Shown: one piece after another, positions 32,744 through 61,300 of the stretch
Layout of the letters: each line of letters begins with the position of its first letter
How positions within the stretch are numbered: the stretch's first letter is position 1
Assembly (NCBI GenBank): GCA_914767715.1
Contig: OU612067.1
Span: forward strand, 10,106,001 to 10,170,000
Reading direction: 5' to 3'
From: Membranipora membranacea
Lineage: Eukaryota > Bryozoa > Gymnolaemata > Cheilostomatida > Membraniporidae
DNA length: 64,000 nucleotides
The notes under the pieces: model-generated
What the model was told of the DNA's origin: nothing
Databases searched by the model: none
What the model saw: only the letters and a program-made list of their open reading frames with translations
Made by a program: the position numbers and the translations under genes

Positions 32744-34628
32744 TTAGTTGAAACCTTGATGCGTCCTATCTTCTACCCAGTCCTTATATAGCCAACAAAG
32801 ATCCCTGTCCACAAACTGGTCTGCATACAGTTCGACAACCACGTCCGACATAGAAAGTCCCATCATCAGGCCTCTGGTAACAAAATAAAAGGTACAATTT
32901 ATAGTTTAGCACCATTGTCAGTTGGATACACCAGCTGCTTTGAGTAAAAGATTTCCTGTTAGCACTCTATTTTCAATTTACCCATCAAAGACCATATTGT
33001 GTTGTTTGCGGATAGAATCTGGCTTAAAGCCTGGAGAGATTGAATCTTTCTTCTAAGGACAAGAGAAGTGGGCTACTGCCAAACATGTGGAAGCAGCTGA
33101 ATTATTTACTTCGTAAAATACTATGTAGCTTTAATGAAGTGATATTAATCTTTAGTCAGACTACTAGCTATGTGTCAGTGCAGGAATTTTTGAGATGTAA
33201 CATGTAGTTCCTGAGAACTTGAAAAGGCGATATATCAAGTTAATAAATCTTGGTGTGAGGTACATTGAATGAATTCGTTCATTGATAATAAAGGGGATCA
33301 TAGTACTGACCTGATTTATTTTTACAGCACGCTTCACAATCAGATCATTCTACAAATATATACAAAAAAATTGCAGTAAGTTTAAACCAAATCTGAGTAA
33401 CAGCAACAGGTAGGTATAAATGGTTTCGAGAGCCCTTGATTCATCATTGAATATTGTGTATTGGATATGATATGAAAGACATGCAACATAGAGGAAACAT
33501 ATCACAATTGCAACTGAAGCTCTTTAATCATGGTAACACAGCACTTTCCGATATCAACTATATTGATATATCGATAACACAATGCAACCATAAAAATTGA
33601 ATATCAAGTACAGAGTAAGGCAATCTGCGAGCCTTACAAGAGGTTGTTGCACAAACAAGATTTAAATAGCAGCTTGAGACTGTGCTGAAATTTCGAAACC
33701 CTTTGCATTCCATTATCAGATGATGGAATATCCACATCTTTCACAATATTAACTCTGAAATAACACAGTCATGGCCAATTGTAGCCTGTCTAGATAAGCT
33801 TCGTTGAACTCCAAGAAGAGAGTGCTTCCCATTTAAAGTAGGTCAATCTTGGGTAAAATTTGATTGCCAAACAGAATTCCCAAGTTTTTGTATAAGAATT
33901 CTCTCCCTTATTTCAAGAGAAGACAATTGCCTTCGAAACAGGCTTGACAAGAGTCGCTCTGCTCCCCCCCCCCCCCACCCCACAGCAACCGAGAAACTCA
34001 TTGGTACGATTGTGTTACATGTTTCTTCATTGACATTGTTCGCATTGCTTTTTCCATCGCTCTTGCATAATTTATGGTGAGATTTTAGCTACTAGGTCAG
34101 GGTATCAGGGTCAGGTCACCGGTATTGGAATATGAGGACAGATTGCGATATTATCCCAACTGATAGCTTACCTTAGTTACTGTAGACAAGTTTTCTGTTC
34201 CGCGTAAATTAACTCTGTCTGTTGTTAAGAGCCAGGCGAAGACACCAACAAGAGCGAGCAGTAAGCATCCCAGAATCAAGGCCACATAAAAGGAGATTGG
34301 CCGTTTGTCGGTCTTCATGCTTTTCATCTAAAGAGTAGAAAGACAAGGTATGAGTTGCTTCAAGAAACATGTTATGCCTTCTATGTATTACGTACATTTA
34401 TTATGAAAACAATCATTTGTTGAAGGTCACTCAAATATGAGCAAGATTGCTAAGATATAACACCAAACATTGAAATATTGGAATGCACTTCTGAGTCCAT
34501 ACTTTTGCACCCCTACAGGCAGATTTGCTCAACATTGATACAATTTTGAGTTCCAGTTCAAACCTCCGACTTATAAACCAGTTCGTTCAACCTAATAATA
34601 CACTTACCTTAACTGTGTCGATCTTCAT
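32744..34628 (-). CDS. Type II single-pass membrane protein, copy A
   Basis: Minus-strand exons: 34608-34628 (MKIDTVK, donor gtaagt), 34172-34327 (KSMKTDKRP, then hydrophobic SFYVALILGCLLLALVGVFAW and a polar stem, donor gtaagc), 33311-33349 (NDLIVKRAVKINQ, donor gtcagt), and 32744-32873 or less (starts RPDDGTFYVGRGCRTVCRPVC; in phase 0 it stops at a TAA about 29 codons in, although another frame stays open to 32744). All internal junctions are phase 0. The basic N-terminus and single hydrophobic segment predict N-in, C-out topology with a short extracellular tail holding clustered cysteines. Paralogues lie at 3.9-5.9 kb and in copy B. No known family recognised. Confidence 0.6.
33964..33981. 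repeat. Poly-C tract and related homopolymer runs
   Basis: Long C or G runs occur here and at about 35792-35807, 49626-49637, 49840-49852 and 51724-51743. Run lengths differ between copies A and B, so they are unstable or error-prone. Confidence 0.7.
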
Positions 34629-35961
34629 GTTGATAGCTGACTGCACTGATGCTGTGACTTAACTGACACACTTGACACAAATATTTGTTATGAGATCAAG
34701 ATAATAATAACAACATTGACCTTTTCATCTAGGGCTGGGCCGCATAACCACTTTAATTGCTCCCACAGCAAATGAGTCAAGCCTTTGCTGCCTCACTGAC
34801 AGTCATAAAGAAAAATAAAGCCATTTTTATTTCGCCGATTGAGTTAAGAGTGCTCCATAAGATTACAAATCTATGAAGTTTTTTGAACAGAGCACCCAAC
34901 TAGACACCAATTCGAAGAAAGTACAACAGCGCAGAGGAGACGTTTCCTCTGAATTAACCAAAGAAAATCAGGCTGGTTACGGTAACCTAGTGTGATCGAT
35001 TGGCTATCATCCACCACATTTATGGATAAGGTATGTGCTAGTCACAGGTGCTCTTCTAATAACAGTATCAGCCCAATGTGTTTCATTTTTTTTGCATTGC
35101 CCATCCCTAGTTTTGCCTGACCATCATATTGATGTGACATTTTAATTACTTGAACAATCATTTGTTTTGTCATATCAAGTTTACTGAAAACAAAAATGTA
35201 GCTGCCAAAAACAACCACTGTATATATAATAAGTATGTATGATATCATAGTCAACAACAACTTCCTCTCAAACTATTTTTTGACCTGATTCATACGATTG
35301 TTTTTATTGTTATTTATTATGTTGCATCATAATTGCTATCCTAGGTAAACAGCCGCCGTTTTTGTATTTATTCATGTCCTCCAGCAATAGAATTGATCTG
35401 CATGTATCAATGAACTGAGAAATACAGCGCATAGTTGGTATATAAAGTCTATGATTTTAATTATTATGGACCAACAATATTGTAGGAGTTATGTCCTTTG
35501 TTAACATGAGAAGACAACCCGCTGATCAGCTGTAATATTCAGTTTAAGACTATACTCTGTCTCATATAGATATACTGGTAATGACAGTGATTTTATGTTG
35601 TCCGAATTGATTTTATTCCATTTGCCATCATCCATGATAATGTGCAGAGGTAGTTTTTTTATTAGTCTTACGATCCTTGCACCAGTTGCTATTTCCATTC
35701 TGATCTATGACAGAGATCAAACACGTTTTTTTCCAGCTTACTCTTGTGATTATCATGAACATCTTCAACTTCCCAACTAGTACCATATGCAGCCCCCCCC
35801 CCCCCCACTTCCTACACGGATTGTAGGTTCATGCTTTAGAGGCTTCCGATCACTTTTAAGATTGCACACAATGGTAATAACTTGGCTTTTCAAGGGGCTG
35901 CATGCTTGTCATTATGACTTTAGTCAACAGTATAGTCAGTTAGGAAGGTGACAGGCTCTAG
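34629..35961. other. Stretch with an unusually conserved ~300-bp block
   Basis: 35490-35792 shows no difference from 51422-51724, whereas neighbouring sequence differs by scattered substitutions. Both strands are open: a minus frame 35501-35698 and a plus frame 35595-35780 with a hydrophobic segment (FFISLTILAPVAISILIY). Neither has decisive splice support, so I do not call an exon. Confidence 0.4.
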
Positions 35962-37482
35962 GTGAATAAAAAGGTTATGGGAATGAATATCAGTTGGCTG
36001 ACTCCACAGCTGAGGATTACACCAACCTGGAAACTATCCAAAGGTAAGACGTCCTAACAGCTGACATTACAGTTACAGAGCGACATATTGTGGTTTTTTA
36101 TCTTCTTGGCTTACTCCTTCAGCTGACCTTGCAATCTGTCATCACAGGCTATCAATAAATCAACATTACTAAACATATCAACAAGTTTTTTAGTTGGATG
36201 ACTCAGGAGTTAAATAAAAAATAGATCGGTTATTATTGTACAGCTGTAGTTTTAAGGCTAAGCTATAAGTTTTTTTTAAGAGCCTTAATCATGGATACTC
36301 ACTTGGATTGATATTATTTCTGCTCTCATGGTTTATTTTCATTTGACATTCACTGCCCATGCTAAGTTTTATACTGTGATTGACGAACACAAGTATTGCA
36401 ATTCATATCACTTCCATAAATCTGACCAGCTGGCGCTGGTTTCATCTTTGCAATATACGTTGAATAAGCGTCACAAAAAAGGATCTTATAAATTTTTGTT
36501 TCCTGTGTTTAGTTACTCAAACATTTTGAAAAAATCGCATCAAATATCAAAACTATTTAGCAACAAAGCAGCGTGAAGTTATTCCTACAAATAAGATTTC
36601 TATATCTGAAGACCTACTTTCTGTACGCACTCAGCAATTCTGCAAATTCTATGAGCTAGTAGAAGTTTATTTCACCAAATTCTGCCGTGTAAAGAGAATA
36701 AAAGTTCCAGTGGAAGACCTTTGCTAGCCACCCTACTGATCTTCAAACTGGGTCAGAAAAAAACTAAGATCATTCGGTGATACAAATTTTTCTATTGTAG
36801 ACGTTTCAAAACTGCTAACACGAAAAGTCAATTACAGTACATGGTAGTGAGGCGGGATGGAGATGACCTCACACGAGTCACCACAAGCAATTTTTTTCAT
36901 TAACGGATACGAGACGCACAAAACTTGAGTAATTGCAATGGTCACTTACCTCAGCAGTACAATCATATTGCTTTGGCCAGCATTAATCCTGACAGCAAAT
37001 AAACACAACCAAAATGATACGGTTATCGCTTGCTGTTACATTGGGTGCACAGTGTTTATTCACATATCAAATCTATGCATTGCGAGAAATCCGAGTTTCT
37101 CGGCTAGGAAACCTGGTATGGTGATGTTGGTCTTGGTTTTGGGCTTATTATAATTCTCTATCAGACTAGGTTCGATAGCGTCGACATTTCGATTTTTTCT
37201 CAGCATCACTGTTTCCATTGCTCAAAAATGTCATATTACTATCACTCACTGAAATGAGCTTTTCGGGCATTTCTGGGTACAGTAATTTCAACCAACTTGT
37301 ATAAGTTGACAGTACATTAAGCTCTTAAATTTACTACTTTGGATGAGTATCTGTTCCATACAAGAGTCAGATTCTCTTCCAGTAACCCTCAGTCTGATGA
37401 ATCTGGATATACACTTTGGCCACAGCTGTTGCTGGTTGCAACGCCAACATTTACATATCTACACCTCCAGTGGCTCCTCTGA
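35962..37482 (+). pseudogene. Remnant exons of a tyrosine-motif-tail paralogue, copy A
   Basis: Exon 35962-36043 has the same phases (1 in, 2 out) and a similar C-terminal pattern (DYTNL...IQR) to the ITAM-bearing exon of the CUB receptor, but its second codon triplet after the junction is TAA (35967-35969). Exon 37383-37482 begins SNPQSDESGYT, like the receptor's last exon (NTQPDESEYTS), then shifts out of the homologous frame before a stop. Copy B has the intact first exon. It is a decaying duplicate of the receptor's cytoplasmic end. Confidence 0.6.
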
Positions 37483-37489
37483 AGAGGGA

Positions 37490-38777
37490 AAATGAATCTG
37501 AGTATACAAATTAAATCTTACAAGTCATTAAAAACAGCAATCCGATAACATTCAAACTGTTTTACTGACCTGACTGAAGGTGCAGTACAATTATGATCAT
37601 CAATGCTTTGTTGGTAGCTGCAATACTGTCGGTTTCTTTGATGCTAGGATTTATCCTCTCAATCACCAAGAGGGGATGACTCTTAATCCTTATTATTGGC
37701 AGAACAGGGATGTCACCATTGATTTATAGGTGGAGAATTTGGACAGAGTCAATTATAGATTTGTATTAGACAGACACCTAGCCTAGGATTCAGGCCAAAA
37801 ATGAGGCCTTGTCTGTATTATTGGTGATGTTGGAGAAAATTATTACTACTTTTCCATCTTATCTTGGTGATTACAATAAGAAGGCTAGGGTATAAATGTG
37901 ATCTAACAATGTTACAGAAGTTAGCCAGGGGATATAAGCTAATAAAGGACACAAGATGCCAGCTTTATTTGCTGATCATTCACAGATGAACTATTCAGTT
38001 CCTAGTTTCAATAAAAGGAATTGCTTTTATAATGAAGGTCATAACCCTAAACTCACTTATTGGTTGCCAGAAAAAGTTGCAGGCAAACCCAGGTCACACT
38101 GAAGTACTTTAAAGACTTCATTTGCCAAGCTGATGTAGGTAAAGAATATCCTCTAACTTGAGGCGAATTCATTCACACTCCTGTGCCATAACCATAACCA
38201 TATTATGATCACAGATTTTCAAGCTCAAGATAAATTTGTCATGGCCACGGGCATAGATAGGGTCTCATATAATTCTGACCACATACTTTGTATAGGTAAA
38301 AAATTAGTTTATTTTATTCTGCTCTCAAATGTAATGGCATTGCTGACTTATTTTACAACCCGTGCTCTGACCACAAAATGAATCAATCAGTGTATAAAAT
38401 AATGCAGCTCTCTCCCTGGTATGAATTAATGACATTTCAACACAACTATTAAATCACAATGCAAAAAATATCCTGTCAATGTAATCAGTCAAGCAGCACT
38501 TTAAAATCCACATGACTATAATACTTGTATTCAGCTGGTTTGATCGCTATAAATTTTTGTCAACATGAACGAGGAAGTAGCCTAAGCAGGCATATGATAT
38601 TGATAAAGCCTGGTGATTGTTCTTAGCTGCTCACCATCAAGATAACATTCTTGCCTTATGTAGGACGTAGGTGATCACTTGAGCAGCAGTCAACTACTAT
38701 GACGCATTGCAAATAGAAGAGTAAAGTTCAGTCCATAATTCATAGGTATACATTTTGAAGAATATACAAGAGAAGAG
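37490..38777. other. Region upstream of the receptor gene, copy A
   Basis: Conserved with 53650-55329 but without coding signals. It presumably contains promoter and 5' UTR of the receptor gene; no TATA box or initiator was distinguished. Confidence 0.35.
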
Positions 38778-41700
38778 ATGAAGGGTGCGTTAGTATTGGT
38801 CTATGGACTAGTAAGCTGTCAGATGGTGGTCACAGGTGAGTCTACCGAAGTTAGCCTGTCAGTCAATCTAAGACTATGCTTAAAGTGTACTCCCTGTCTT
38901 ATTGCCAACCACACCATAACAAGGTAAGCCCTGGGATTTTTGGGTAATTATTTAAATGCCACTACTAATTTACAAGAAGATAATGCAAATCTGTAAGACC
39001 GCTCTATGAAGAACTTGAAATAATGCAAATCTGTAAGACCGCTCTATGAAGAACTTGAAATAATGCAAATCTGTATGACCGCTCTATGAAGAACTTGAAA
39101 TAATGCAAATCTGTAAGACCGCTCTATGAAGAACTTGAAATAATGCAAATCTGTAAGACCGCTCTATGAAGAACTTGAAATAATGCAAATGTGTAAGACC
39201 GCTCTATGAAGAACTTGAAATAATGCAAATCTGTAAGACCGCTCCATGTAGAACTTGAAACATGAGATAATCATCTGCAGCAGTTCAAGATTAACGATAA
39301 CAGGGACACTCTGCAGTTGTGAACATCTCAGCTGCTGTCAAAGGGGAAGGACTAGGGTTAGATGTTGGGGTATTTTAGGTAAGCTTATTCCGACCTTCCC
39401 ATTAAGGCACTTGTATTGTGCATATTGGATGAATTCATACATTCAATATTCGGAATCGCCACAAGTCATAGTAGGTTTGGCTAAAGAGGTTTTCTTGTTG
39501 AGTGGGAGGGAGGTGTTGAATTAACTTGTGTACTGCTAGATGTATGTTCCAAACCTGATTCTTTGATTGCAGGTCGTCTGTCAGTGCACTACCTTTGTTT
39601 ACAATTATTGTTAGTTAACGTTTTTATTTTCCTGGTTTAGATAGGCATTATTACTGATGTCGGAACAAAGTTGCAATACTGGCCGCAGGGAGTATGGGAT
39701 ACTTGTTCCAAACTCCCTAGTAGCATAACTAGCTATGCCCCTAGGAGGATTCGCCTCTCATGCTCACAGATGGCATAACTCCTCCGACTTTTGTATACCC
39801 AAATAACACAAGGCTTATAGAAAAGAAACGATATTCCAGCTTGGTATATCTATTGTCGAAACATATATTGCAGACAAGCCTACTAAGGGTTACAGAGAAA
39901 TACTTGGTCACCAAGACATACATCAGAGGTCATCCTTTCATTCGAGTCATTTGTCAACATCAATATATTTCACTGTGACTTCATGTTCACTCCGGCCCTT
40001 TTTGGTCTATTAAGAAGAGCTAGTAATATAATCTGTCTCAAATAACTTCCGCTGCACGCCAATTTTCAGTTAGCAAAGACAATACTTTCTAATGAACAGT
40101 ACACCCCAATTTATAAAAGTGTGTCTATCTAGCTTTTCTTACTACAAACAATTCAAACACCATGATTTCATGACTACATAGTGTCTCTAATCAACAAATC
40201 AAGCACTCCTGTTTTTTCACCCTAAAAATAAAAACTACCAGCTAAAAAATATTCTTTAAAAATATTCAGCCAAATTCAAAGCGCTGTAAAAATCACATGA
40301 CTATAATGCTTCTATTCAGTTGCAATAATCAAATAAATAATTAAACTAGTCTATTGTCTACTCTATGAAGAAGTACCATTTACTTACGCCTAACAGTGTT
40401 AAGACTTGGTTTGCGTTCTTAGCCAGATCCCTTTACTTAAGCGATTATAGGTTGTGGGCATTTCACTGCCAAGTGATAAACTTGGCAGTAATGAGAGAAA
40501 TAATATCAGGCTCTCTCCTACAAAGTAAGTCCCTACAGTCAATATCAGGGCCCGACTGTCCGGTTGTATATGGAAATGCTTTTTGGTTTATTATCTTCTT
40601 CTCTTGCATACGCTTCTCAATAAGTCTGTTGACATGAATGCCTTCAGAATGCCTATTTCATATTAAAACAGCGGATACTGATGAGGAGCTATGTGTCCTC
40701 CCGTTTGTATATGATGGAGTTGAATATTACACATGCACAACAGTAGAAAATGATGGAGACTACTGGTGTGCTTTTACCTCTACATATCAGTCTGATAGAT
40801 GGAAAAAATGTACAGGTGAGGAGGCAAATACCTAACGTCAGCTTCCATGTTTAGCTGCTCTAGTCATTCATTATCAACTATATCGTCATCTTAACTTCAG
40901 TTTGAAATTCAACTAAATGAAGTCAACATTGGCTCTTAGGATGGCATCAGGCAATGTTCAATTTGCATGCTAGTGATTAATCATTCTCATCAACTGCCAG
41001 TGTATGCTAGACGCATTTGCCTGCAGCTCGTTAATAGAGTGAGAGAAATGCCAAAACAGGCAAAATTAAACGAACTTGATCTAGATTTCTCTGGTAACAC
41101 CAGTCCTTGCGGGTTTTTAGACCTGTTGGATGACTCTACCGCTGCTTCAATTTTACAATCTCATATTTTGGAAGACATGTTATTTACTTTCTTCTTTCTC
41201 TCAATGTACAGGTGACACTGAAGCCCAGAGCTCTGTTTATGTTATGTTAGGTGTGGGAAATAGGCTTATCAAACATCAAACAGGAACTATTATCAGTCAC
41301 AGAGGATATTCCCAGCAGAATTATTCTAGCGGTGTGAACAGTACACTTATGATACAAGTAGATGGAGTCTTATCAGTCACCTTAAAAATTTTGGAATTTG
41401 AACTTGAGGATGCCCGACTGAATGGCAGCTGTTATGACTATCTCCAATTGAACAATGGTCCACAATACTGTCAAAAAGATCTCAGCCCAGGGCAGTACAA
41501 AACTTTCATCGATGCTAACGGAAGATTTAATCTCAGGTTTTACACGGATTCAACAAAGATGAACCGAGGATTCAGGATCCAATACAGCTATTACAGTGAG
41601 TTGTGATTTAATTTAATTTACGTTTGTCTTTAGCGTTGGTGGATGTGAAATAATGGTACTACATAGTTGAGATTAGTATTGCATAGAATTTGACAGTATT

Positions 41701-44700
41701 CGGAGGTGAACAAATTTTTTATCTAGAAGAGTTTTGGGTACAAATAGTTTAACAATTTTTTGACATAGCCCTGTTTCATTGGGTTTTGTTTACTGAATTA
41801 AGTGTATAGCGTTGAGAGATTGAACCATATGGTGGCACAATTGTCCTCAATTGCAATTTTATATTGGGGGATTTGCTTGTTCTCAAAACACAGTTTTGGT
41901 TCTCAAACAGATTTTGAATGTATGCCACTTCTCACTTACAAAGTTGGTTGCCCATCTTGTCGATAGAATTATTCCTGGATGAGCTAATTTACCTGTAGTG
42001 GAGATTGATCCTAAAATCCTGACGCATTTACTGTACAAGCTCAAGTGCTGAAGGTCATCATCATCATGTCATGAATAATTTGTAGAATTAGAGCCTCTCA
42101 TTTGTGACACTGAGAGACTTCAGAGAGGTTATCACTACATTCAGCCAGCCAACAATACAGATGATAATGTGTATGCTGTATCAGCAGAGTGCAGAATCAG
42201 ATCTCCCTCAATCAATGACACACTCTACTGTAACAGCATGAGTGGCAATTGGAGTTTGTTGGATGATGCCAATAAACTATCTGCATGTTTTCATATACAC
42301 GGTTTGAACAATTATATATTCATTTTATCGTCCTCTCCTGCGCGTTTTTTTCAGCCGATTGGTCTTTGGTGAAATTAAATAAATAATTGTTGAAACTTTC
42401 CACTCTATGGTACTAGCTAGCAGAGCATAATTATTGAACTTCGATCATATTTTGCTTTCAAACTTTAGCATTCGAAGGTTTAATGATTACTGTATTCACT
42501 GTATTCACTGTATTCACTGTATTCACTGTATTCCAGATGCTCTCGCAATCCTAAACTCTCGACCAAACTCACCAGAAGAAACAAGTAACAAAGAAGGCTA
42601 CATCATCAGTCACCCAACCTTCCCTGAGGCCTACACAGCTAGCATAGACTCATCTCTGACTATCACAGGATTACAACCTCAGCAGACAGTATATATTAAA
42701 TTCTTGGTGTTCGATCTGTATTATGACCCTAAATACCGTGGTTGTTATTATGACTACCTACAAATAGAGTGGTTTGGGACTACCTGTAGTGATCCTGACA
42801 CACGTCCTGCTCTAGATCGATGGTATCCCATCTCAGCTTGGCTATCCAGGATAACCTTCAGATTCATGACTAATACGAACCACACTACAGTTAAATCTGG
42901 ATTCTACTTTCAGTATAGAGGTCAGTGAGTTTGTGCATGTGACTAATTAAAATCAATATTAACCTCTTTTCAATAATCTTACGTTTTATATTAACTGATT
43001 CAGCATAAAGTTTTGACAATGCATTAGTGCAAAGAAAGGCGAAAGCTGCAAGAGTCAGAAAGCTAACAAACCTTAGAATAGATTCATAATAGAAGTAGTT
43101 GTAAAGAAGTGAGAATTGTGAAGGTCAAGGTTCTTTGTTACAGGTCTCACAAAAACTCAAAATGTTGAATCATGCTGAAAATTCATCCATATTTCCTTTT
43201 ATGGACAGTTTTAGAGCATGCACCAGTAACAACCACCACACATATATCATCCACTACTGTCGGAACTGAAACTTCAACTTTTACACCAACAACAGTAACG
43301 ACGATCACGCAAACCGCAGCTGGAATCAGCAGCACACAAAACCCGGTACCTGAAATCACTACTGGTATATCATCTACAGATGCAAACTCAACTCTTATTG
43401 GGTCAACCAAAACAAAAGCTACACAATCGAATATCCCAGGTACGTAACAAGAATTAATATGAGTTGTCAGCACACTAATGTATACGTATACTAGTATTTA
43501 TAGTATATATAGTATTGATGGTTGTCTTGGCAGATTCTGGCGGTCTTTGGCCTATGCGAGTCGGGCAAACAGATATGATTTCGTGATTACAATTCATATT
43601 TATTTTGCTGATTTTATTCAATTCAGCTGAAAATCCAACAGACAGTGACATTCAAATGCAAGGACAAGATAACTCTGTGGCTTTAGGAGCTGGTATCGGT
43701 GTATCAGCACTCATCATTCTGATTGTTATTGTCATAGCAGTACTAATGATTATGAGGCGGTGTCGAGAACAGGCTGAGTAAGTCACAATGCTGAGAGAAC
43801 AAATCATCGGTGCTATGAAACTTGAGGTCCATTGTGTGATTTTAAAGGTGAACTGCGAGGTGCAGGGTCACCATATGTCATTTTAAAGAGCTCAAAAAGT
43901 TGTATAAGCAAGTAGGTTCCCATGAGGCTAGCGAATCTTCTGGAGTTTTGAGAATGTTTTGACAAATTGGTCTTTTTTGGGTGATGTTTTTTCTTTATTT
44001 TGGAGTTGCCCTTCCATCATAGGCTCCAAGGTAGCAGTGGACGCAGTGAGCTTAGAAATCATACCCAATATCTCAGGTGATCTTGTTTTATAAGGCATGT
44101 ATGGCTGATTGCCCATGCCCCATGCTGATTATCTCCACAATGGATGACCACTGATCAAAACAATAATATTTCAACTGGGTAATAAAGCAAGATGAATATA
44201 CGCTGTCCCTACTCCCTAATCCCTATTGATAGCAAGCTACAGCCATGTAAAAATAGCATCCGTGATTGACATCTTCAAAACCAATATTTACATTACACGA
44301 TAGTGTGTGAAATTTTTACGGCTAAAACTTCATAAATAGAAATGATCAGAATTATTTCACCTGTTGACGGCAAGACCATCACATACTTTCAAGGAATAAC
44401 ACATGTCATTACTATGCTGAGAAAAAAAAACAGCATCTAATTTGCAAAGGGAAGAAATCTTTGTATCCTTCTCCAAAGGAGACGAGGTTTAGAATTTGAT
44501 GGATACAGCATGTGGAAACCTATTTCCCAAATGTGAAAATCTGTAAAACATCTAGGCTGTGCTATCTACATTTCAGAGAGGAGGATTTTATTTTATTTTC
44601 TGCGACCAACAGTCATTGTAAGCTGAGAAAAGTGAGGTGTCAGACATATGAATTTTGTAATTCACAAGCTGAAAACTATATAGAAACATCCCAAAAACAG

Positions 44701-46544
44701 CCTTCTCCCCCCCCTCCCTGACAAAATCTTCTTGTGAACCCACTAAAGTTTCCATGAAAAAAAAGCATTATCAGCAATCACCTCAATAAAGATATTTACT
44801 TGAGAACTTTGATCCCATGTAAGAAATAAAGGTGGTTATAGAGACAGCCCATTAAGTGTCTAGTTCTTCATAGCGACATTTGGATATGTCTCACCTGTAC
44901 AGATGATATGCGAATGTTACACCACCAACTGCATGAATGATGGGGCATTTATTTTAGGTTGAGCTTAGCTTTTTAACATGAAAAATCAGGTCCATACCCT
45001 TCCCTCTAGTACTACATCAGTAAACCTCCACCCATGATTGGAGTGTCAACATCGGTTGTCATCACAGTGATTCTCACAGCAATGTTTAATTGTTTTAAAC
45101 GCCGCCGAGAACATGCAAAGTAAGTGATATCATGTAGAGTGAAATACAGTTGATATCAGTAGTAGCCTTACTTATCATTACAATTTTCATCTCTAGCATG
45201 GAATACATTGTAAATATAGTAGACTCATGGTCATTGGAACAGATTTCAGTTTTTGTTCAAATTGTAAATCTTCTGTTATCTGACAATGTAAAACTCCATG
45301 TTTCAACCTTATAGAATGCTAACTGAATTATTGCACAAACTGTGCTGATCCCATCGTTAAATAATTTAAACTTATATTATGACGAAAATAATCATAGCTG
45401 ACACGATGTAGCACTTGTGTTTCTTGTAAGCTCATCAAAATCAACTTCTTCAAGAGTTTGGTTATTTCAAGATCAGCTCAGACAAATTTCAAGGATTATT
45501 TTGTGTCATCTGAACAATGAGGTGTGAGAAAATCGCTTCATGGAAGCAAATTATGGTTTTCAGTTTTGTTATCCCGAGAGAAAACTTTTATTATTTTTTC
45601 ATCTATAGACAGAACGGAGAAGTTGAGAATGAATACACATCAGCTTATAGTGCCTCTGGTGATGTACACATATACATGTCTGCTCAAACAGGTTAGACCA
45701 AAATGTAACTCATAACATCACTAGCCATAAATGGAGTCATACTAAATTGCATTGCTGCACTGGACATAAAAAAGCTTTTGACTGTTTGAATCATAAAGTA
45801 TTAGTACCTAACCAAATTTACAAAAAAGAGTTATAATAATGAACTGCCCCAACCATTAATCAATGATCTCAAATCATTCAAGTCATCCATCAAGAGCCAG
45901 ATATTTAGTGCATAACCCTTTCCTTTACTTAATTCTTTCATTTTTCTACAATAGGTACTAAATCTTTAATTGCAACAATCTCATGACCTATAAGTATAGT
46001 CTTATTATTTTTATACCCTTGTGTAATAGTGAACCCACACTTTTATGATAACATTCAATCTGCATTTATTCTAAAAGTAAGCATTTGTAAATTTTTTTCT
46101 GGGTAGAATTCAATTTTTTTACAGAGAGACATAACTCCGCTTTCACATGTCCCTATGATGATGTTGACATACCTGTAGACAATGTTGATCAAGGAGAAGA
46201 ATATGAGCAGATTCGGGATAATACCAGTCATGAATATCAAGATTTATCCGACGCACAAAGGTAAAATACAATTTTCATAGTGTATGCATATGTTATTGAT
46301 GTTAGATATTTTTATTTTGAACCTTACTTTCTAACTAATAAATCACCACCAGCATTATGATATTACTTTATTTGAGATTCGAATTATGAATTGTTTTATT
46401 TCTCATCAGCCACTGAGGTTTTGTTTCTTTTCTTGCAGAAACACTCAACCTGATGAATCTGAGTACACCTCTGCAACAGCTTTTACTAACTGTGATCTCC
46501 ATATTTATACATCCGCAGACGCTGGTCAATCTGGCCACAAGTAA
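38778..46544 (+). CDS. FN2-CUB-sushi-like-CUB type I receptor with ITAM tail, copy A
   Basis: Exons: 38778-38835 (signal peptide KGALVLVYGLVSCQMVV), 40648-40815 (FN2), 41212-41595 (CUB1), 42086-42301 (sushi-like), 42537-42920 (CUB2), 43209-43439 (Ser/Thr stalk), 43627-43777 (transmembrane), 45021-45119 (optional second hydrophobic segment), 45609-45691, 46125-46260 and 46439-46544 (tail, stop TAA). Extracellular junctions are all phase 1, the classic shuffling phase. Predicted length is about 640 residues, or 670 with the cassette. The tail carries YDDV, YEQI and YQDL plus repeated EYTSA and HIYxSA motifs. YEQI-x7-YQDL fits the ITAM consensus, so Syk/Src-type kinase signalling is a reasonable inference. 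ATTAAA at 46585-46590 may be the poly(A) signal. It is related in exon design to the gene in copy B. Confidence 0.85.
38980..39259 (+). repeat. 40-bp tandem repeat, 7 copies (intron 1, copy A)
   Basis: The unit (taatgcaaatctgtaagacc plus 20 more bases) repeats seven times with near identity. Copy B has three units at 55532-55651, so the array changed length after duplication. Confidence 0.95.
40648..40815 (+). CDS. Fibronectin type II domain exon, copy A
   Basis: Acceptor cag at 40645-40647, donor gtgagg. It encodes ELCVLPFVYDG, YYTCTT, YWCAFTSTYQ and WKKCTG: four cysteines and the aromatic WC and FVY positions of FN2 modules. A further cysteine lies in the leading ECLFHIKT. FN2 modules commonly bind collagen-like or other extended ligands; the ligand here is unknown. 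Confidence 0.85.
41212..41595 (+). CDS. CUB domain 1 exon, copy A
   Basis: 128 codons, phase 1-1. CUB features: GTIISHRGYSQQNYSSG start, hydrophobic strand LSVTLKILEFELED, SCYDYLQLNNG and YCQKD, then RFNLRFYTDSTKMNRGFRIQY at the end. It retains the second cysteine pair; the first pair is absent, as in a subset of CUB domains. Confidence 0.85.
42086..42301 (+). CDS. Sushi/CCP-like exon, copy A
   Basis: 72 codons, phase 1-1, with a weak donor gtttga. Cysteines and pattern ICDTERLQRGYHYIQP, SAECRIRSP, LYCNSMSGNWS and LSACFHIH resemble a sushi module (four Cys, GY, and G-x-W before the last Cys), but spacing is not fully canonical. Confidence 0.6.
42491..42536 (+). repeat. 9-bp repeat forming the acceptor tract of CUB2, copy A (5 units)
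   Basis: tgtattcac is repeated and the last unit, tgtattccag, is itself the splice acceptor of the CUB2 exon. Copy B has eight units. Repeat length therefore directly alters the polypyrimidine/branch region. Confidence 0.85.
42537..42920 (+). CDS. CUB domain 2 exon, copy A
   Basis: 128 codons, phase 1-1. It reads GYIISHPTFPEAYTASIDSS, a hydrophobic strand IKFLVFDLYYDP, CYYDYLQIEW, CSDPD and a GFYFQYRG end. It differs from copy B at 17 bases, all amino-acid-changing by my count. Confidence 0.85.
43209..43439 (+). CDS. Ser/Thr-rich stalk exon, copy A
   Basis: 77 codons, phase 1-1, dominated by Thr/Ser (TTTTHISSTTVGTETST and similar). It is likely an O-glycosylated mucin-like stem raising the CUB domains above the membrane. 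Confidence 0.8.
43627..43777 (+). CDS. Transmembrane exon, copy A
   Basis: Phase 1 in, 2 out. Acidic/polar lead, then a 21-residue hydrophobic span (GVSALIILIVIVIAVLMIM) followed by the stop-transfer RRCREQA. Type I orientation follows from the signal peptide. Confidence 0.85.
45021..45119 (+). CDS. Symmetric 99-bp cassette exon with a second hydrophobic segment, copy A
   Basis: Acceptor catcag at 45015-45020, donor gtaagt at 45120; phase 2-2, so it can be included or skipped without changing frame. It encodes KPPPMIGVSTSVVITVILTA, MFNCF and KRRREHA, similar to the main transmembrane exon including IGVS and the RRxREHA/RREQA end. Probably an exon duplication. If included, the protein would have two membrane spans and tail topology could change. 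Confidence 0.65.
45609..45691 (+). CDS. First cytoplasmic tail exon, copy A
   Basis: Phase 2 in, 1 out. It encodes NGEVENEYTSAYSASGD and VHIYMSAQT. Identical in copy B over all 83 bases. Its EYTSA and HIYxSA motifs recur in the last exon, suggesting internal duplication. Confidence 0.75.
46125..46260 (+). CDS. ITAM-bearing tail exon, copy A
   Basis: Phase 1 in, 2 out. Contains PYDDVDI, EEYEQI and HEYQDL. YEQI and YQDL are separated by seven residues, which fits YxxI/L-x6-8-YxxI/L. Acidic context surrounds the tyrosines. Confidence 0.8.
46439..46544 (+). CDS. Last tail exon and stop, copy A
   Basis: Acceptor cttgcag, phase 2. Encodes NTQPDESEYTSATAFTNC and HIYTSADAGQSGHK, ending at TAA 46542-46544. 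Confidence 0.75.
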
Positions 46545-46990
46545 ACCCGAGTGTGAATATTGCTCATACAGATATTTACACTCAATTAAACATACTGATT
46601 TGAACTGATGTATATACCTGATCACTGCAGGCTCTAATAGACTACTGATTTTTAATGCTAAAGATGTCGAACTTTCCATCCTCTCTTGTAGAATTTATCT
46701 TCTCACATATGTAGAGAGTGTAACTCCCCACAATTATAACAGGATAGTAAATCAAGCTTTTTCCTTTTGCCTAGTGGCAGAGTGGCATTACTTTGTCTCA
46801 AAAGGCACCTTCATACCTGCCTTTCTGCATCGTCCCTGCATCAGTGCCCAGAGTAAACAAACAACAAAGTAATTGCTTTGTAGTATTTTAATTTTCACAA
46901 AATATTAGTCAGATCACTTGACCTTTATTGTATCCATTTATGGTCACCTGTAGCCCAAAATTTTAATTACACTGCAGCTATACATAACTC
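46545..46990. other. Spacer between the receptor gene and the gypsy fragment
   Basis: Probable 3' UTR/downstream sequence of the receptor. No features beyond the ATTAAA at 46585. Confidence 0.4.
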
Positions 46991-48631
46991 AAGGAGGGAT
47001 TATTGTTTTTGGACACTGAACATTACATAAACATGGAAAAGGTAGAAAAAGTTCAGAATTTGCCAGTGCCAGAATGTAAGACAGCCTTGAAATCATTTCA
47101 TGGCTTGATAAATTACTACAGAAAGTATGTAGAGGATTATGCTAAAGTATGTAGACCATTGAACAGGCTAATGAGTGGAAAAATCCCATTTGTATGGGAT
47201 ACTGAATGCCAGGCGACTAGTGCCACAGGAGTTGTGGGTTCGAGTCCAACTGGGGGAGCTTTCATTGTTGATTGTTCCAGCCCCCAGCACCCTCGGGTGT
47301 ATACCTCTCCTGTGTACTTGTCTACTGACTGACTCATGGAAAGACATGTGACAGCATGGAAAGACATGCTGACAAGCTGGAAAGACAGCTAAACCTACTA
47401 AAAGGGGTCCCAGCAATGGGCCATGTAAGGCCAATAACCCTAACACGTACGCTGTGTTTCATAGGGTGGCAATGGTGGATTGGAATGTGCTGTGGGATGA
47501 GAGAACACAACTCCGAGTAGTGAATAGCGGGCTATCTAATTAGCGCCGTCGACCCATTCTTTTTTGGGGATGGTGAGATGGCGCAATCGGTTAGCGCGCT
47601 TGCTATTCACTGCCAGGCGATTAGTGCCGCAGGAGTTGTGGGTTCGAGTCCAACTGTGGGAGCTTTCATTGTTGATTGTTCCAGCCCCCAGCACCCTCGG
47701 GTGTATACCTCTCCTGGATACTGAATGTCAGGAGGCATTTGAGCTACTCAAACTGTTGCTCATCACAGCACCAATACTAGGTTATCCAATACCAGGTCTT
47801 GAGTACATTTTAGACACAGATGCTAGCAACACAGCTACTGGCGCAGTACTCTCACAAATGCAGGATGGGCATGAGAGAGTTATAGCCTATTATTCTAAAA
47901 GCCTGTCACCACAAGAGGTCAATTACTGTGCGACAAGAAAAGAGCTTCTTGCTGTTATCAAAGCTATTAAGCATTTTCGGCCCTATTTGATAGGTACCAA
48001 GTTTCGACTAAGGACAGATCATGCATCATTGATTTGGTTGTACAAAAGAAATGAACCATCCGACCAGGTCGCGAGATGGTTAGAGAGCATGGCTGAGTTT
48101 GATTTTGAGTTAGAACATAGGCCTGGTACGAAGCATGGAAATGCTGATGGGCTGAGCAGAATCAAATGTGAAAACTGTAAACAATGTAACCGAATAGAGA
48201 AAAGAGATGGCGGCCCGTCCCATAGTGACATAGCTGCTACCACACAAGACAGATTGATGACAGAAATCAATCGACCATTATCAAGTGATATCACTGAAAG
48301 ACCAATAGTATGTGTGGCTCAGACTACTGATCTAGCATGTTTACAACAAAAAAAACCAAGTGACCTAGAAAAGGTCTATCAATGTGTAAAATGTCAAGTA
48401 ATACTAAATGAAGACGAGCTCCGCATGGGGAACGATTTGATACCATGTATGAGATTGAGAAATGATGGTATCCTTGAAGTAAGGTTTACCTTCAACGACA
48501 AAGAGATATGGGTGGTAGCTTGTCCTCAATCGGCAAGAGAAGCCGTCATATGGGAAACCCACTCAATGATACATTCAGGTGTACGTAAAACCACAGCCCG
48601 ACTTAGATTGTCATGGTACTGGCCAGGTATG
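46991..48631 (+). mobile_element. Ty3/gypsy pol fragment at the duplication junction, interrupted by a SINE
   Basis: The frame 47003-47213 matches the end of a gypsy reverse transcriptase (NLPVPECKTALKSFHGLINY, then PLNRLM). After an inserted SINE, pol resumes at about 47717 with RNase H (LDTDASNTATGAVLSQ, RKELLAVIKAIKHF, LRTDHASLIWL, HRPGTKHGNADGLSR). It ends in the first half of the integrase zinc-binding motif (HSMIHSGVRKT, WYWPGM). The sequence then passes directly into copy B. No LTRs, gag or integrase core are present, so it is a dead fragment. Confidence 0.85.
47214..47716 (+). mobile_element. Dimeric tRNA-derived SINE inserted in the gypsy fragment
   Basis: The insert is bounded by a 16-bp direct repeat with one mismatch (GATACTGAATGCCAGG at 47198-47213; GATACTGAATGTCAGG at 47717-47732), and removing it restores the pol order. 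It contains two related units. The first is 5'-truncated, with only a B box GGTTCGAGTCC at about 47237; the second has a complete head with A box TGGCGCAATCGGT (47579-47591) and B box (47641-47651). Both continue through a shared segment ending cctctcctg. Confidence 0.75.
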
Positions 48632-51900: not shown

Positions 51901-51982
51901 GTGAAGAAAAAGGTTATGAGAATGAATATCAGTTGGCTGACTCCACAGCTGAGGATTACACCAACCTGGAAACTATCCAAAG
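51901..51982 (+). pseudogene. ITAM-exon-like remnant of the upstream paralogue, copy B
   Basis: Open in phase 1-2, encoding EEKGYENEYQLAD and EDYTNLETIQR, thus homologous in position and phase to the receptor's ITAM exon. The matching last exon is largely deleted in copy B (only a NANIYKSTP-like piece near 53630), so no complete gene remains. Confidence 0.55.
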
Positions 51983-52130
51983 GTAAGACGTCCTAACAGA
52001 TGACATAACAGTTACAGAGAAATATTGTGGTTTTTTTATCTTCTTGGCTTACTCCTTCAGCTGACCTTGCAATCTGTCATCACAGGCTATCAATAAATCA
52101 ACATTTCTAAACATATCAACAAGTTTTTTT

Positions 52131-55329: not shown

Positions 55330-58300
55330 ATGAAGGGTGCGTTAGTATTGTTCTATGGATTAGTAAGCTGTCAGATGGTGGTCACTGGTGAGTCTACCGA
55401 AGTTAGCCTGTCAATCAATCTAAGACTATGCTTAAAGTGTACTCCCTGTCTTATTGCCAACCACAACACAACAAGGTAAGCCCTGGGATTTTTGGGTAAT
55501 TATTTAAATGCCACTACTAATTTACAAGAAGATAATGCAAATCTGTAAGACCGCTCTATGAAGAACTTGAAATAATGCAAATCTGTAAGACCGCTCTATG
55601 AAGAACTTAAAATAATGCAAATCTGTAAGACCGCTCCATGTAGAACTTGAAACATGAGATAATCATCTGCAGCACTTCAAGATTAGCGATAACAGGGACA
55701 CTCTGCAGTTGTGAACGTTTCAGCTGCTGTCAAAGGGGAAGGACTAGGGTTAGATGCAGACCTGGGTCCAAGTCATCGCAAGTCAAGTCAAGTCAAGTCA
55801 TTGTCGATGCTAAGTCAAGTCAAGTCAAGTCACATTTACATTTACAAGTCAAGTCAATTGGTGTCTATTTTTTTCGCTATCAAGTCAAGTCAAGTCAAGT
55901 CATGATATTTGTAAGTCAAGTCAAGTCAAAGATGGGTGACTTACAAGTCATGGCAAAGACACGCTCATTAACCGTGAAAATCAACTCCAAATCGTGGAGG
56001 AGTTAGTTAGGTCCTCAGGAGTTGCTCTACTAATCGGGATTTGCTCCCCTCCCCACAAACGAAAGAAGGTATGGGTGTGTACGCAATTCAGCAATGTAAC
56101 TTCATTGTATATATGTACCTTTATTGTGTCAATGATGACAAATTAAATGTTTCATTCTGTAAAAAGATGAGCTGGTGGAGGATAAATAAATAAACACAGA
56201 CTAAGATTGATCACTATTTGTTAACGACGGATAAAACGTTCTCTCTGAAAAGGTTTTTGCATCTGCCTGTTTGTAATGTCTCTAAGGTCATGAGAGGTTT
56301 GTCGATGGCAGTGGCTACTAGCCTCCATGACTCATTATGCATGTGACTCGAATAATATCGTTCGGTTTAGTGAATTCAAGCTTTGACAACTTACCACCAG
56401 TTTTTTTGGACTCGTATGAGTTATTGGCGATCTTCCACGGTCATAGGAGTTGTACACTACTATCATATGAAAAATTACCACCATGGTGATGAGGAAGATT
56501 ACAGTGCTAGATCTAAAGGAGACAAGGTAACGAGCGTCCATTTTTATTAACTAGGACAATTTCTCAACAAATTATGGTGTCAGTCGGAAAGAGGATAGGA
56601 GCATACCCTAATCCCTTCATCGGTAATTCCTGATCATCACTCAACCTGGTCTGCAGCTTAGGCAGTGGGGGGTTGTATCAATCTATATCATTGGTTGTAT
56701 TTAGTTACAGCTTGTGTAAAGCCTGCACTATATGATCATATGACTATATTAATATTGCATCATGGGATACATTTTCATTTTACTGATTACAAGACAACAA
56801 GAGAAGACAACTAATATGTAAGGCAGGAACTCTGACTACTTACCTATAGCTGAGAAGTTGGGTTTTCTGTTTCGGAGTTGGGGTTTCAGAGTTGGGGTTT
56901 CAGAGTTGGGGTTTCAGAGTTGGGGTTTCAGAGTTGGGGTTTCAGAGTTGGTCTCTTCCTACATTATGTTATAAAATTTCACACATTGACTTATGTTGAC
57001 TTGACCAAAGTCAGGACAACTCCCAAGTCAAGTCAAGTCAAAGTCATTTTTTCATTAAGTCAAGTCAAGTGTTGTCTATTTGTTTTCGACATCAAGTCAA
57101 GTCAAGTCATAATTTTGTTAGCTCAAGTCAAGTCATGACTTTGACTTGACTTGACTTGAAGATGACTTGACTTACCATCACTTGGACCCAGGTCTGGTTA
57201 GATGTTGGGGTATTTTAGGTAAGCTTATACCGACCTACCCATTTAGGCACTTGTATTGTGCATATTGGATGAATTCATACATTCAATATTCGGAATCGCC
57301 ACAAGTCATAGTAGGTTTGGCTAAAGAAGTTCTCTTGTTGAGTGGGAGGGAGGTGTTGAATTAACTTGTGTACTGCTAGAAGTATGTTCCAAACCTGATT
57401 CTTTGATTGCAGTTCGTCTGTCAGTGTACTACCTTTTTTTACAATTATTGTTAGTTAACGTTTTTATTATCCTGGTTTAGATAGGCATTATTACTGCTGT
57501 CGAAAAAAGTTGCAATACTGGCAGCAAGGAGTATGGGATACTTGTTCCAAACTCCCTAGTAGCATAACTAGCTATGCCCATAGGAGGATTTGTCCTCTCA
57601 TGCTCACAGATGGCATAACTCCTCCGACTTTTGTATACCCAATTAACACAAAGCTGATAGAAAAGAAACGATATTCCAGCTTGGTATATCTATTGCCGAA
57701 ACATATAATGCAGACAAGCCTACTAAGGGTTACAGAAAAATACTTGGTCACCTAAGCCATACATCAGAGGTCATCCTTTCATTCAAGTCATTTGTCAACA
57801 TCAATATATTTCACTGTGACTTCATGTTCACTCCGGCCCTTCTTGGTCTATTAAGAAAAGCTAGTAATATAATCTGTCTCAAATAACGTCCGCTGCACGC
57901 CAATTTTCAGTTAGCAAAGACAATACTTTTTAATGTACAGTACATCCCAATTTATAAAAGTGTGTCTATCTAGCTTTTCTTACTACAAACAATTCAAACA
58001 CCATAATTTCATCATGACATAGTGTTTCTAATCAACAAATCCAGCATTCCTGTTATTTCACCCTAGAAATGAAAACTAACAGCTGAAAACTATTCTTTAA
58101 AAATATTCAGCCAAATTCAAAACGCTTTAAAAATCACATGACTATAATGTTTCTATTCAGTTGCAATAGTCAAATAAATACTTAAACAAGTTTATTGTCT
58201 ACTCTATGAGGAATTACTATTTACTTACGCCTAACAGTGTTAAGACTTGGTTTGCGTTCTTAGCCAGATCCCTTTAATTAAGCGATTATAGGTTGTGGGC

Positions 58301-61300
58301 ATTTCACTGCCGGTTGTACATGGAAATGCTTTTTGGTTTATTATCTTCTTCTTTGCATACGCTTCTGAATAAGTCTGTTGACATGAATGCCTTCAAAATG
58401 CCTATTTCATATTAAAACAGCGGATACTGATGAGGAGCTATGTGTCTTCCCGTTTGTATATGATGAAGTTGAATATTACACATGCACAGCAGTAGAAAAT
58501 GATGGAGACTACTGGTGTGCTTTAACCTCTACATATCAGTCTGATGGATGGAAAAGTTGTACAGGTGAGGAAGCAAATACCTACCGTCAGCTACCATGTT
58601 TAGCTGCTCTAGTCATTCATTATCAACTATATCGTTATCTTAACTTCAGTTTGAAATTCAACTAAATAAAGTCAACATTGGCTCTTAGGATGGCATCAGG
58701 CAATGTTCAATTAACATGCTAGTGATTAATCATTCTCATCCACTGCCAGTGTATGCTAGACGCATTTGCCTGCAGCTCGTTAATAGAGTGAGAGAAATGC
58801 CATAGCAGGCAAAATTAAACAAACTTGATCTAGATTTCTCTGGTAACACCAGTCATTGCAGGTTTTTAGACTTGTTGGATGACTCTGCCGCTGCTTCAAT
58901 TTTACAATCTCATATTTTGGAAGACTGTTATTTACTTTCTTCTTTCTCTCAATGTGCAGGTGACACTGAAGCCCAGAGCTCTGTTTATGTTATGCTAGGT
59001 GTGGGAAATAGGCTTATCAAACATCAAACAGGAACTATTATCAGTCACAGAGGATATTCCCAGCAGAATTATTCTAGCGGTGTGAACAGTACACTTATGA
59101 TACAAGTAGATGGAGTCTTATCAGTAACCTTAAAAATTTTGGAATTTGAACTTGAGGATGCCCGACCAAATGGCAGCTGCTATGACTATCTCCAATTGAA
59201 CAATGGTCCACAATACTGTCAAAAAGATCTCAGCCCAGGGCAGTACAAAACTTTCATCGATGCTAACGGAAGATTTAATCTCAAGTTTTATACGGATTTA
59301 ACAAAGATGAACCGAGGATTCAGGATCCAATACAGCTATTACAGTGAGTTGTGATTGAATTTAATTTACGTTTGTCTTTAGCGTTGGTGGATGTGAAATA
59401 ATGGTACTACATAGTTGAGATTAGTATTGCATAGAATTTGACAGTATTCGGAGGTGAACAAATTTTTTATCTAGAAGAGTTTTGGGTACAAAAAGCTTAA
59501 CAATTTTTTGACATAGCCCTGTTTCATTGGGTTTTGTTTACTGAATTAAGTGTATAGCGTTGAGAGATTGAACCATATGGTGGCACAATTGTCCTCAATT
59601 GCAATTTTATATTGGGGGATTTGCTTGTTCTCAAAACACAGTTTTGGTTCTCAAACAGATTTTGAAAGTATGCCACTTCTCACTTACAAAGTTGGTTGCC
59701 CATATTTCTTGTCGATAGAATTATTCCTGGATGAGCTACTTTACCTGTAGTGGAGATTGATCCTAAAATCCTGACGCATTTACTGTACAAGCTCAAGTGC
59801 TGAAGGTCATCATCATCATGTCATGAATAATTTGTAGAATTAGAGCCTCTCATTTGTGACACTGAGAGACTTCAGAGAGGTTATCACTACATTCAGCCAG
59901 CCAACAATACAGACGATAATGTGTATGCTGTATCAGCAGAGTGCAGAATCAGATCTCCCTCAATCAATGACACACTCTACTGTAACAGCATGAGTGGCAA
60001 ATGGAATTTGTTGGATGATGCCAATAAACTATCTGCATGTTTTCATATACACGGTTTGAACAATTATATATTCATTTTATCGTCCTCTCCTGCGCGTTTT
60101 TTCAGCCGATTGGTCTTTGGTGAAATTAAATAAATAATTGTTGAAACTTTCCACTCTATGGTACTAGCTAGCAGAGCATAATTATTGAACTTCGATCATA
60201 TTTTGCTTTCAAACTTTAGCATTCGAAGGTTTAATGATTACTGTATTCACTGTATTCACTGTATTCACTGTATTCACTGTATCCACTGTATTCACTGTAT
60301 TCACTGTATTTCAGATGCTCTCGCAATCCTAAACTCTCGACCAAACTCACCAGAAGAAACAAGTAACAAAGAAGGCTACATCATCAGTCACCCAAACTTC
60401 CCTGAGGCCTACACAGCTAGCATAGACTCATCTCTGACTATCACAGGATTACAACCTCAGCAGACAGTACAGATTAAATTCTTGGTGTTCGATCTGTATT
60501 ATGACCCTGAATACCGTGGTTGTAATTATGACTACCTACAAATAAATGGGTTTAGGACTACCTGTAGTGATCCTGACACACTTCCTGCTCTAGATCGATG
60601 GTATCCCATCTCAGTTTTCCTATCCAGGATAAACTTCAGATTCAGGACTGATAGGAACCACACTACAGTTAAATCTGGATTCTACTTTCAGTATAGAGGT
60701 CAGTGAGTTTGTGCATGTGACTAATTAAAATCAATATTAACCTCTTTTCAATAATCTTACGTTTTATATTAACTGATCAGCATAAAGTTTTGACAATGCA
60801 TTAGTGCAAAGAAAGGCAAAAGCTGCAAGAGTCAGAAAGCTAACAAACCCTAGAATAGATTCATAATAGAAGTAGCTGTAAAGAAGTGAGAATAGTGAAG
60901 GTCAAGGTTCTTTGTTACAGGTCTCACAAAAACTCAAAATGTTGAATCATGCTGAAAATTCATCCATATTTCCTTTTATGGACAGTTTTAGAGCATGCAC
61001 CAGTAACAACCACCACACATATATCATCCACTACTGTCGGAACTGAAACTTCAATTTTTACACCAACAACAGTAACGACGATCACGCAAACAGCAGCTGG
61101 AATCAGCAGCACACAAAACCCGGTACCTGAAATCACTACTGGTATATCATCTACAGATGCAAACTCAACTCTTATTGGGTCAACCAAAACAAAAGCTACA
61201 CAATCGAATATCCCAGGTACGTAACAAGAATTAATGTGAGTTGTCAGCACACTAATGTATACGTATACTAGTATTTATAGTATATATAGTATTGATGGTT

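Follow-up and report, generated by a model that had tools for sequence, protein, structure and literature searches.

An FN2/CUB receptor gene with a putative ITAM in a large tandem cluster of genes with recombining tails

A stretch of 64,000 nucleotides from Membranipora membranacea (C3:10106001-10170000, hereafter the window; the genome comprises 339 Mb in 18 contigs) contains a gene, termed gene A, that is predicted to encode a single-pass FN2/CUB receptor with a full ITAM in its tail. The gene and its ITAM appear sound, and among the tails read from a large family that seems to swap its tails, this ITAM is the exception. We lean towards an overall reading of the locus as a cluster of recognition receptors with phosphotyrosine tails that recombine, in which gene A would be a full ITAM receptor. 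As gene A alone among the genes examined has a complete ITAM, the family outweighs the single motif in importance.

Exon chain and ectodomain of gene A

Gene A consists of ten exons on the plus strand (38778-46544). All introns are of the GT-AG type and their phases, phase 1 in most cases, agree; the reading frame after splicing runs uninterrupted to the stop codon at 46542-46544, giving a product of 636 amino acids. The exons, and a second transmembrane (TM)-like exon in intron 7, are:

38778..38835, plus strand: exon 1, start codon and signal peptide (exon model, hydropathy)
40648..40815, plus strand: exon 2, fibronectin type II (FN2) domain (Pfam fn2, E 3.6e-11)
41212..41595, plus strand: exon 3, CUB1 (exon model, Pfam CUB)
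42086..42301, plus strand: exon 4, four-Cys sushi-like module (Cys/Trp pattern; without profile support)
42537..42920, plus strand: exon 5, CUB2 (exon model; CUB domains best in PDB)
43215..43439, plus strand: exon 6, Ser/Thr-rich stalk (exon model, composition)
43627..43777, plus strand: exon 7, transmembrane span (exon model, hydropathy)
45021..45119, plus strand: exon 7b, second TM-like exon, in intron 7 (sequence inspection for splice sites and phase)
45609..45691, plus strand: exon 8, tail, EYTSA...HIYMSA (exon model, class I homologs)
46125..46260, plus strand: exon 9, tail with YDDV, YEQI and YQDL (exon model, motif scan)
46439..46544, plus strand: exon 10, end of tail and stop codon (exon model)

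The domains thus follow each other as signal peptide, FN2, CUB, sushi-like module, CUB, Ser/Thr stalk, TM span and tail. Pfam recognized fn2 (E 3.6e-11) and, over two stretches, CUB (E 2.5e-13), both above cut-off. Hydropathy revealed a hydrophobic N terminus of the signal type and a single strong TM span (best window at residues 502-520), and 34 of the 75 stalk residues are Ser or Thr. The best PDB matches of the FN2 domain were gelatinases and fibronectin. A CUB2 model calculated from four window sequences reached moderate confidence (pLDDT 62) and was matched best by the CUB domains of PCPE-1, C1r/C1s and MASP-1, with low TM-scores (0.3-0.5). The sushi-like module owes its name solely to the spacing of its four Cys and to a pattern of these Cys and one Trp, all of them unchanged across the four paralogs aligned. 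It had no Pfam match on a first scan, none to the sushi family in a four-paralog scan and no PDB match, the single-sequence model being poor (pLDDT 46).

The gene model had been proposed in a sequence-only reading of the same stretch, and it held in its ten GT-AG exons, fitting phases, open frame, Pfam domains and single TM span. Of the domain order given there, FN2, the CUB domains, stalk and TM span stand, and the sushi-like part is reduced to a Cys/Trp pattern without profile match. As far as sequence can show, gene A is a real gene. The order of its FN2 and CUB domains recurs in paralogs P1 and C, its exon 2 acceptor CTTCAG is common to P1, and the whole exon chain recurs in a tandem copy, B, except for the exon 2 acceptor, which B has lost. 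Furthermore, seven additional genes have homologs of exons 8, 9 and 10, arranged as in A.

Exon 7b would be in frame if spliced between exons 7 and 8 (phase 2 to 2). Copy B has a counterpart near 62.76 kb that is 99-100% alike; the remaining genes in the 264 kb of sequence read gave no match to 7b beyond ordinary TM exons. It may be a leftover of the tail donor's TM exon. Intron 1 harbors a 40-bp tandem repeat (38980-39260), of which copy B has fewer units. An Rfam scan of the window gave no match. Searches of the protein collection returned no homolog of the full gene A model (7,993 candidates scored) or of residues 20-403 (2,186 candidates); since this collection is probably poor in animal proteins, the missing homologs are not evidence of novelty.

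Tail classes, tandem copy B and tail exchange

The tail of gene A comprises 115 residues with eight tyrosines and one canonical ITAM (YxxL/I-x6-8-YxxL/I), an activation signal familiar from vertebrate immune receptors, which is predicted to lie behind the only TM span of the model:

46202..46246, plus strand: ITAM YEQI-x7-YQDL (motif scan; coordinates read from the sequence)

The motifs begin at residues 567 (YDDV), 583 (YEQI) and 594 (YQDL), which puts YDDV 16 residues ahead of YEQI and leaves seven residues between YEQI and YQDL. This arrangement, claimed beforehand, was confirmed in the spliced frame. Shuffling of the tail yielded a canonical ITAM in 0.32% of cases (0.26% with the tyrosines fixed in place), so that composition alone does not explain the motif, the tail tested being one chosen out of a whole window. 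Nine canonical matches, gene A's included, occur in the 55,432 amino acids of the window's six-frame ORFs.

Tails were read from 21 genes, namely A, B, seven genes that lie within 264 kb surrounding the window or a little further out (P1, P2, C, D, E, F and P-1) and 12 from CUB pairs; the reading covered 18 of the 26 CUB pairs of the cluster described below plus P2, D and E. The tails fall into two classes. Class I has nine members (A, B, L037, L038, L040, L042, L045, L046 and L047) with three exons like exons 8-10 of A. Class II has 12 members (P1, P2, C, D, E, F, P-1, L039, L041, L043, L044 and L048), whose tail exons differ from those of A and have the same phases where checked (gene C). 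They share a very conserved module, EYxLADSTAEDYANI, with tandem tyrosines at ITAM spacing; YxxA-x6-Y, with Ala at +3 of the first site, is present in eight of the 12, and L044 is frame-broken. The strict ITAM pattern was found in one of nine class I tails, that of gene A, and in none of the 12 class II tails (1/21 overall). Among the tails read it is therefore not conserved between close paralogs. With V allowed and 6-12 residues between the sites, A, B, P1, P2 and E matched among eight tails tested. In both classes, most tails keep their paired tyrosines 10-11 residues apart.

Leaving A and B aside, the second site of the class I genes reads YENT (six) or YEST (one), and all seven have the codons TAT GAG (A/AG)C AC(A/C). 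The first site is YEQI, YTQI or YEQV in five of them and lost in two. Gene A has TAT CAA GAT TTA at the second site and B has AAT AAA AAT TCA: copy B keeps YEQI and carries NKNS in place of YQDL, the second tyrosine being lost. Exon 9 is 78% identical between A and B. Exons 8 and 10 are the better conserved parts of the tail, with tyrosines at four positions there in all nine class I genes. In the simplest reading, the class I ancestor would have had a half ITAM followed by a YxN site, which A changed to YQDL and B lost. Homology of exon 9 of A with class II tail exons is at most suggestive: its alignment score was reached by 0/1000 shuffles for a fragment upstream of A (see below), 0.1% for D, 0.8% for E and F, 7.1% for P1 and 72% for P-1. 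Exons 8 and 10 had no significant similarity to class II tails by shuffling.

Copy B lies in the second unit of a tandem duplication:

32811..46256, plus strand: tandem duplication, first unit (units 82-97% identical)
48632-64000, plus strand: tandem duplication, second unit, cut by the window end
55330..64000, plus strand: tandem copy B, running beyond the window end (last exon at C3:10170181)
55330-55387, 58397-58564 (acceptor AA, not AG) and 58960-59343, plus strand: copy B exons 1-3
59838-60053, 60315-60698 and 60992-61216, plus strand: copy B exons 4-6
61404-61554, 63359-63441 and 63869 onward past the window end, plus strand: copy B exons 7-9

At 58389-58396, copy B reads CTTCAA where A and P1 read CTTCAG. 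With this acceptor lost, FN2 is possibly skipped, which would keep the frame because exon 1, like exon 2, ends in phase 1. Copy B may thus encode a receptor that lacks FN2, or be in decay. Across nine exons, dN (0.030) and dS (0.026) between A and B are about equal. The ratios of nonsynonymous to synonymous differences are 1:2 in exon 1, 7:0 in FN2, 3:5 in CUB1, 2:1 in the CCP-like exon, 17:0 in CUB2, 1:1 in the stalk, 1:0 in the TM exon, 0:0 in exon 8 and 10:1 in exon 9, exons being singled out post hoc from this one sequence pair. CUB2 stands out because introns 3-5 are far less diverged (10 of 1,017 sites against 17 of 384 in CUB2; Fisher p 1e-4) and none of its 17 differences is synonymous (probability 0.014 by site counts); introns 4 and 5 beside it differ by 0.4 and 1.4%. 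With P1 as outgroup, three CUB2 changes fell on A and three on B with eight left unassigned, so that neither lineage is singled out. Positive selection as the cause of the 7:0 ratio in FN2 was rejected. Copy B carries four of the six amino acid differences and A one, with one left unassigned, and changes that lie mostly on B, whose FN2 acceptor is lost, fit decay.

Ty3/gypsy-like polyprotein ORFs, recognized by eye, lie between the duplicated units (46988-48706), and related fragments occur near 32.8 kb, at the start of the first unit. A TM-type exon (MKSMKTDKRPISFYVALILGCLLLALV...) is present in three copies on the minus strand (34154-34327, 50051-50224 and 4363-4539) and perhaps belongs to a type II membrane protein that was copied along with the units. 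Upstream, 13005-13424 is a Cys-containing ORF of 140 amino acids.

The ectodomain of A resembles genes with the other class of tail. Its CUB1/CUB2 identities are 70/61% to P1 and 66/63% to P-1, both class II-tailed; B apart, the seven genes with class I tails reach only 44-59%. Two minus-strand genes outside the tails read (C3:10.31 and 10.39 Mb; CUB2 60%) also belong in this ranking. Moreover, DNA homology of A stops 48 bp (P1) and 68 bp (P-1) into intron 7. An ectodomain nearest class II-tailed genes and a homology that ends just behind the TM exon argue for an exchange of tails; the ancestor of A and B appears to have joined the ectodomain and TM exon of one subfamily to the other class of tail. 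The features concerned are:

43825..43845, plus strand: end of DNA homology with P1 (43825) and P-1 (43845), putative tail-exchange breakpoint (alignment)
35955..36044, plus strand: class II-like tail exon fragment (NEYQLADSTAEDYTNLETIQR) upstream of A, preceded by a stop codon
51894-51983: open copy of this fragment (NEYQLADSTAEDYTNLETIQR)
37384..37489, plus strand: relic resembling exon 10, frame-shifted against it, upstream of A

The two fragments upstream of A, one like class II and the other like exon 10, indicate that tail exons are scattered through the locus.

The receptor cluster and a candidate reader kinase

A search of the genome with the gene A model returned at least 82 exon matches (71 of 625 candidates scored). 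The region C3:9.97-10.80 Mb contains at least 68 CUB exons, 35 of the CUB1 and 33 of the CUB2 type, which form 26 CUB1-CUB2 pairs closer than 6 kb and leave nine and seven unpaired. The pairs and unpaired exons add up to an estimated 35-42 copies of the gene within 0.82 Mb, some of which may be broken. Outside the cluster, the model has three other matches, at C3:15.36 Mb and on C6. A second dense array of CUB exons, with a period of about 80 kb and many nearly identical copies, occupies C3:22.76-23.60 Mb. The cluster shows the allorecognition trait of a clustered, diversified family, diversification being read from one pairwise comparison. A recognition receptor had been proposed before; the tandem arrangement and the CUB2 substitution pattern lend support to this proposal, with the single A/B pair speaking for diversification.

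Searching the genome for SH2 domains yielded 44 matches, with each of the 57 candidates scored. Two close SH2 pairs, on C11 and C4, were looked at out of several groups, another of which lies at C9:12.13 Mb. At C11:17.33-17.34 Mb, SH2, ankyrin repeats, SH2 and a tyrosine kinase stand in one row (Pfam SH2 7.4e-9, Ank_2 3.3e-13, SH2 6.5e-7), an order that we take to be that of Shark, which makes this a gene of the Shark type. VAVK, HRDLAARN and DFG are intact in the kinase domain; the exons of this gene were taken from ORFs, and in Pfam only the first piece of the kinase domain scored, below the cut-off (0.046). The joined kinase pieces matched, in order of PDB score, an EGFR entry, a Src-Abl ancestor and then Syk, so that this domain by itself does not settle the kinase type. 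The pair at C4:29.67 Mb is SH2-SH3-SH2 with a PH-like piece, RasGAP-like by eye. A gene for a tandem-SH2 kinase, the putative reader of an ITAM, is present in the same genome, and a Syk without ankyrin repeats may exist elsewhere in it. According to excerpts of PMC4503800, Src42A phosphorylates the ITAM of Draper in Drosophila and Shark is recruited; Draper-Src42A-Shark is described there as homologous to SFK-ITAM-Syk, the ITAM tyrosine being required for the response. Syk-family kinases are reported from sponges to primates in an excerpt of PMC9601881.

The full ITAM and the fitting kinase gene support the activating receptor postulated earlier, but the ITAM is not a family trait (one of nine class I and none of 12 class II tails). 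We infer an activating ITAM receptor for one recently changed gene.

Interpretation and comparison with known systems

Gene A could be mis-modelled, with exon 7b replacing or joining exon 7 or with the FN2 exon skipped, the ITAM then being mostly not cytoplasmic. We consider this improbable: 7b fits the frame after exon 7 and is kept in A and B, crude splice-matrix scores are low for the exon 2 acceptor and the exon 4 donor, and that acceptor is lost in B, but exons 7 to 10 are in phase without 7b, 7b is unmatched beyond ordinary TM exons among the remaining genes of these 264 kb, and the exon 2 acceptor is common to P1. It is more improbable still that A and B are two haplotypes laid in tandem by the assembler. 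The duplicated unit is indeed long and 82-97% identical; however, divergence is 8.6 and 10.6% in the flanks immediately ahead of the genes but only 0.4-1.4% in introns 3-5, a retroelement separates the units, and the cluster holds many more divergent copies.

With the gene model accepted, the ITAM itself might be incidental. The tail would then be a set of single SH2 or endocytic sites (YTSA, YMSA, YDDV and YEQI), YQDL would have arisen by drift in a fast exon, and no tandem-SH2 kinase would be used. This is possible, though not probable. The strict motif is absent from 20 of the 21 tails read, copy B among them, YENT or YEST stands in all seven class I genes outside A/B, exon 9 is less well conserved than exons 8 and 10, and its ten nonsynonymous differences to one synonymous between A and B leave room for drift. 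Yet to get from the YENT codons to YQDL, several nonsynonymous substitutions are needed, and they bring back precisely the hydrophobic residue at +3; the seven-residue spacing is accompanied by acidic residues ahead of the first tyrosine, and the tyrosine distance of 10-11 residues persists in the majority of tails of either class. As to the cluster, a role in adhesion, matrix sensing, gamete recognition or feeding, with FN2 binding collagen-like or gelatin-like ligands, seems rather unlikely to us. It would suit the gelatinases and fibronectin that match FN2 best in PDB and the occurrence of CUB domains also in neuropilin, PCPE and spermadhesins. Against it stand the number of copies, their tandem turnover, the exchange of tails and the CUB2 substitutions, all of them commoner at recognition loci, though not decisive. 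An immune or allorecognition role of the cluster is plausible, and we put it forward tentatively.

Gene A is probably a phosphotyrosine-signalling recognition receptor. For its product we infer phosphorylation, kinase binding and activation in such a recognition role. A ligand, bound mainly via the CUB domains, would cluster the receptor, a Src-family kinase would then phosphorylate the tail, and SH2 proteins would dock on it. In gene A, YEQI-x7-YQDL would hold both SH2 domains of the Shark-type kinase; signalling through a kinase of the Shark/Syk type is quite possible, although we stop short of favoring it. Related tails, with YENT/YEST as second site or with YxxA-x6-YANI, would bind single SH2 proteins, or the kinase weakly; YxN sites are preferred by adaptors of the Grb2 type. 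Recombination immediately after the TM exon would let paralogs swap tails, a process that the shared intron phases would allow. Through this exchange, binding specificity and signal output would become recombinable.

A more far-reaching scenario, which we regard as speculative and on the unlikely side, is that the 0.82-Mb cluster is a self/non-self complex that reshuffles ectodomains and tails, and that the ITAM was newly built from a half ITAM (YxxI-x7-YENT) and plugged into a Shark-type kinase. If true, this would be an ITAM receptor in the making, independent of Ig-type receptors. The class I tails offer, on a common backbone, natural ITAM variants that are full, halved or without the first tyrosine; with these and a candidate reader kinase in the genome, the step from half ITAM to ITAM is directly testable. 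Tail exchange would also offer a simple way for pairs of activating and other receptors to arise.

A full-text literature search (titles and abstracts; open-access journal papers) found no description of an FN2-CUB-CCP-CUB receptor family with an ITAM. The NK receptor clusters of vertebrates (LRC, NKC) consist, as here, of paralogs in tandem whose ectodomains are related but whose signalling tails differ; unlike here, the ectodomains are of the Ig or lectin type, and activating members usually borrow the ITAM of an adaptor.

Among invertebrates, Draper/CED-1/MEGF10, seen in Drosophila in the excerpts of PMC4503800, is like gene A a single-pass receptor with an ITAM, and a Shark-type kinase exists here too. 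It differs in having another kind of ectodomain and being one conserved gene, in contrast to FN2/CUB ectodomains in a large tandem family with one full motif among the tails read. CgIgIT2 of the oyster (an excerpt of PMC11999971) also carries its own ITAM, behind five Ig domains instead of FN2 and CUB. The Hydractinia Alr complex, with 41 Alr genes according to the same excerpt, resembles the cluster in its clustered, diverse, single-pass receptors with tyrosine-based tail motifs; Alr proteins are immunoglobulin-like, whereas the ectodomains here are of the FN2 and CUB type. Membership of gene A in the Alr family was rejected, Pfam giving fn2 and CUB and no Ig domain. An excerpt of PMC12065747 places ITAM and ITIM on candidate allorecognition genes of Hydractinia, and ITIM and hemITAM on fester and FcoR of Botryllus. 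The latter are likewise recognition-locus receptors with tyrosine motifs, including single YxxI/L, and with sushi-type domains in the locus; they differ in belonging to a chordate, in their Ig/sushi ectodomains and in the polymorphism of the locus. If the cluster is a recognition complex, it would represent a further lineage in which a non-Ig ectodomain has reached tyrosine-motif tails, like those of Hydractinia Alr and Botryllus FcoR.
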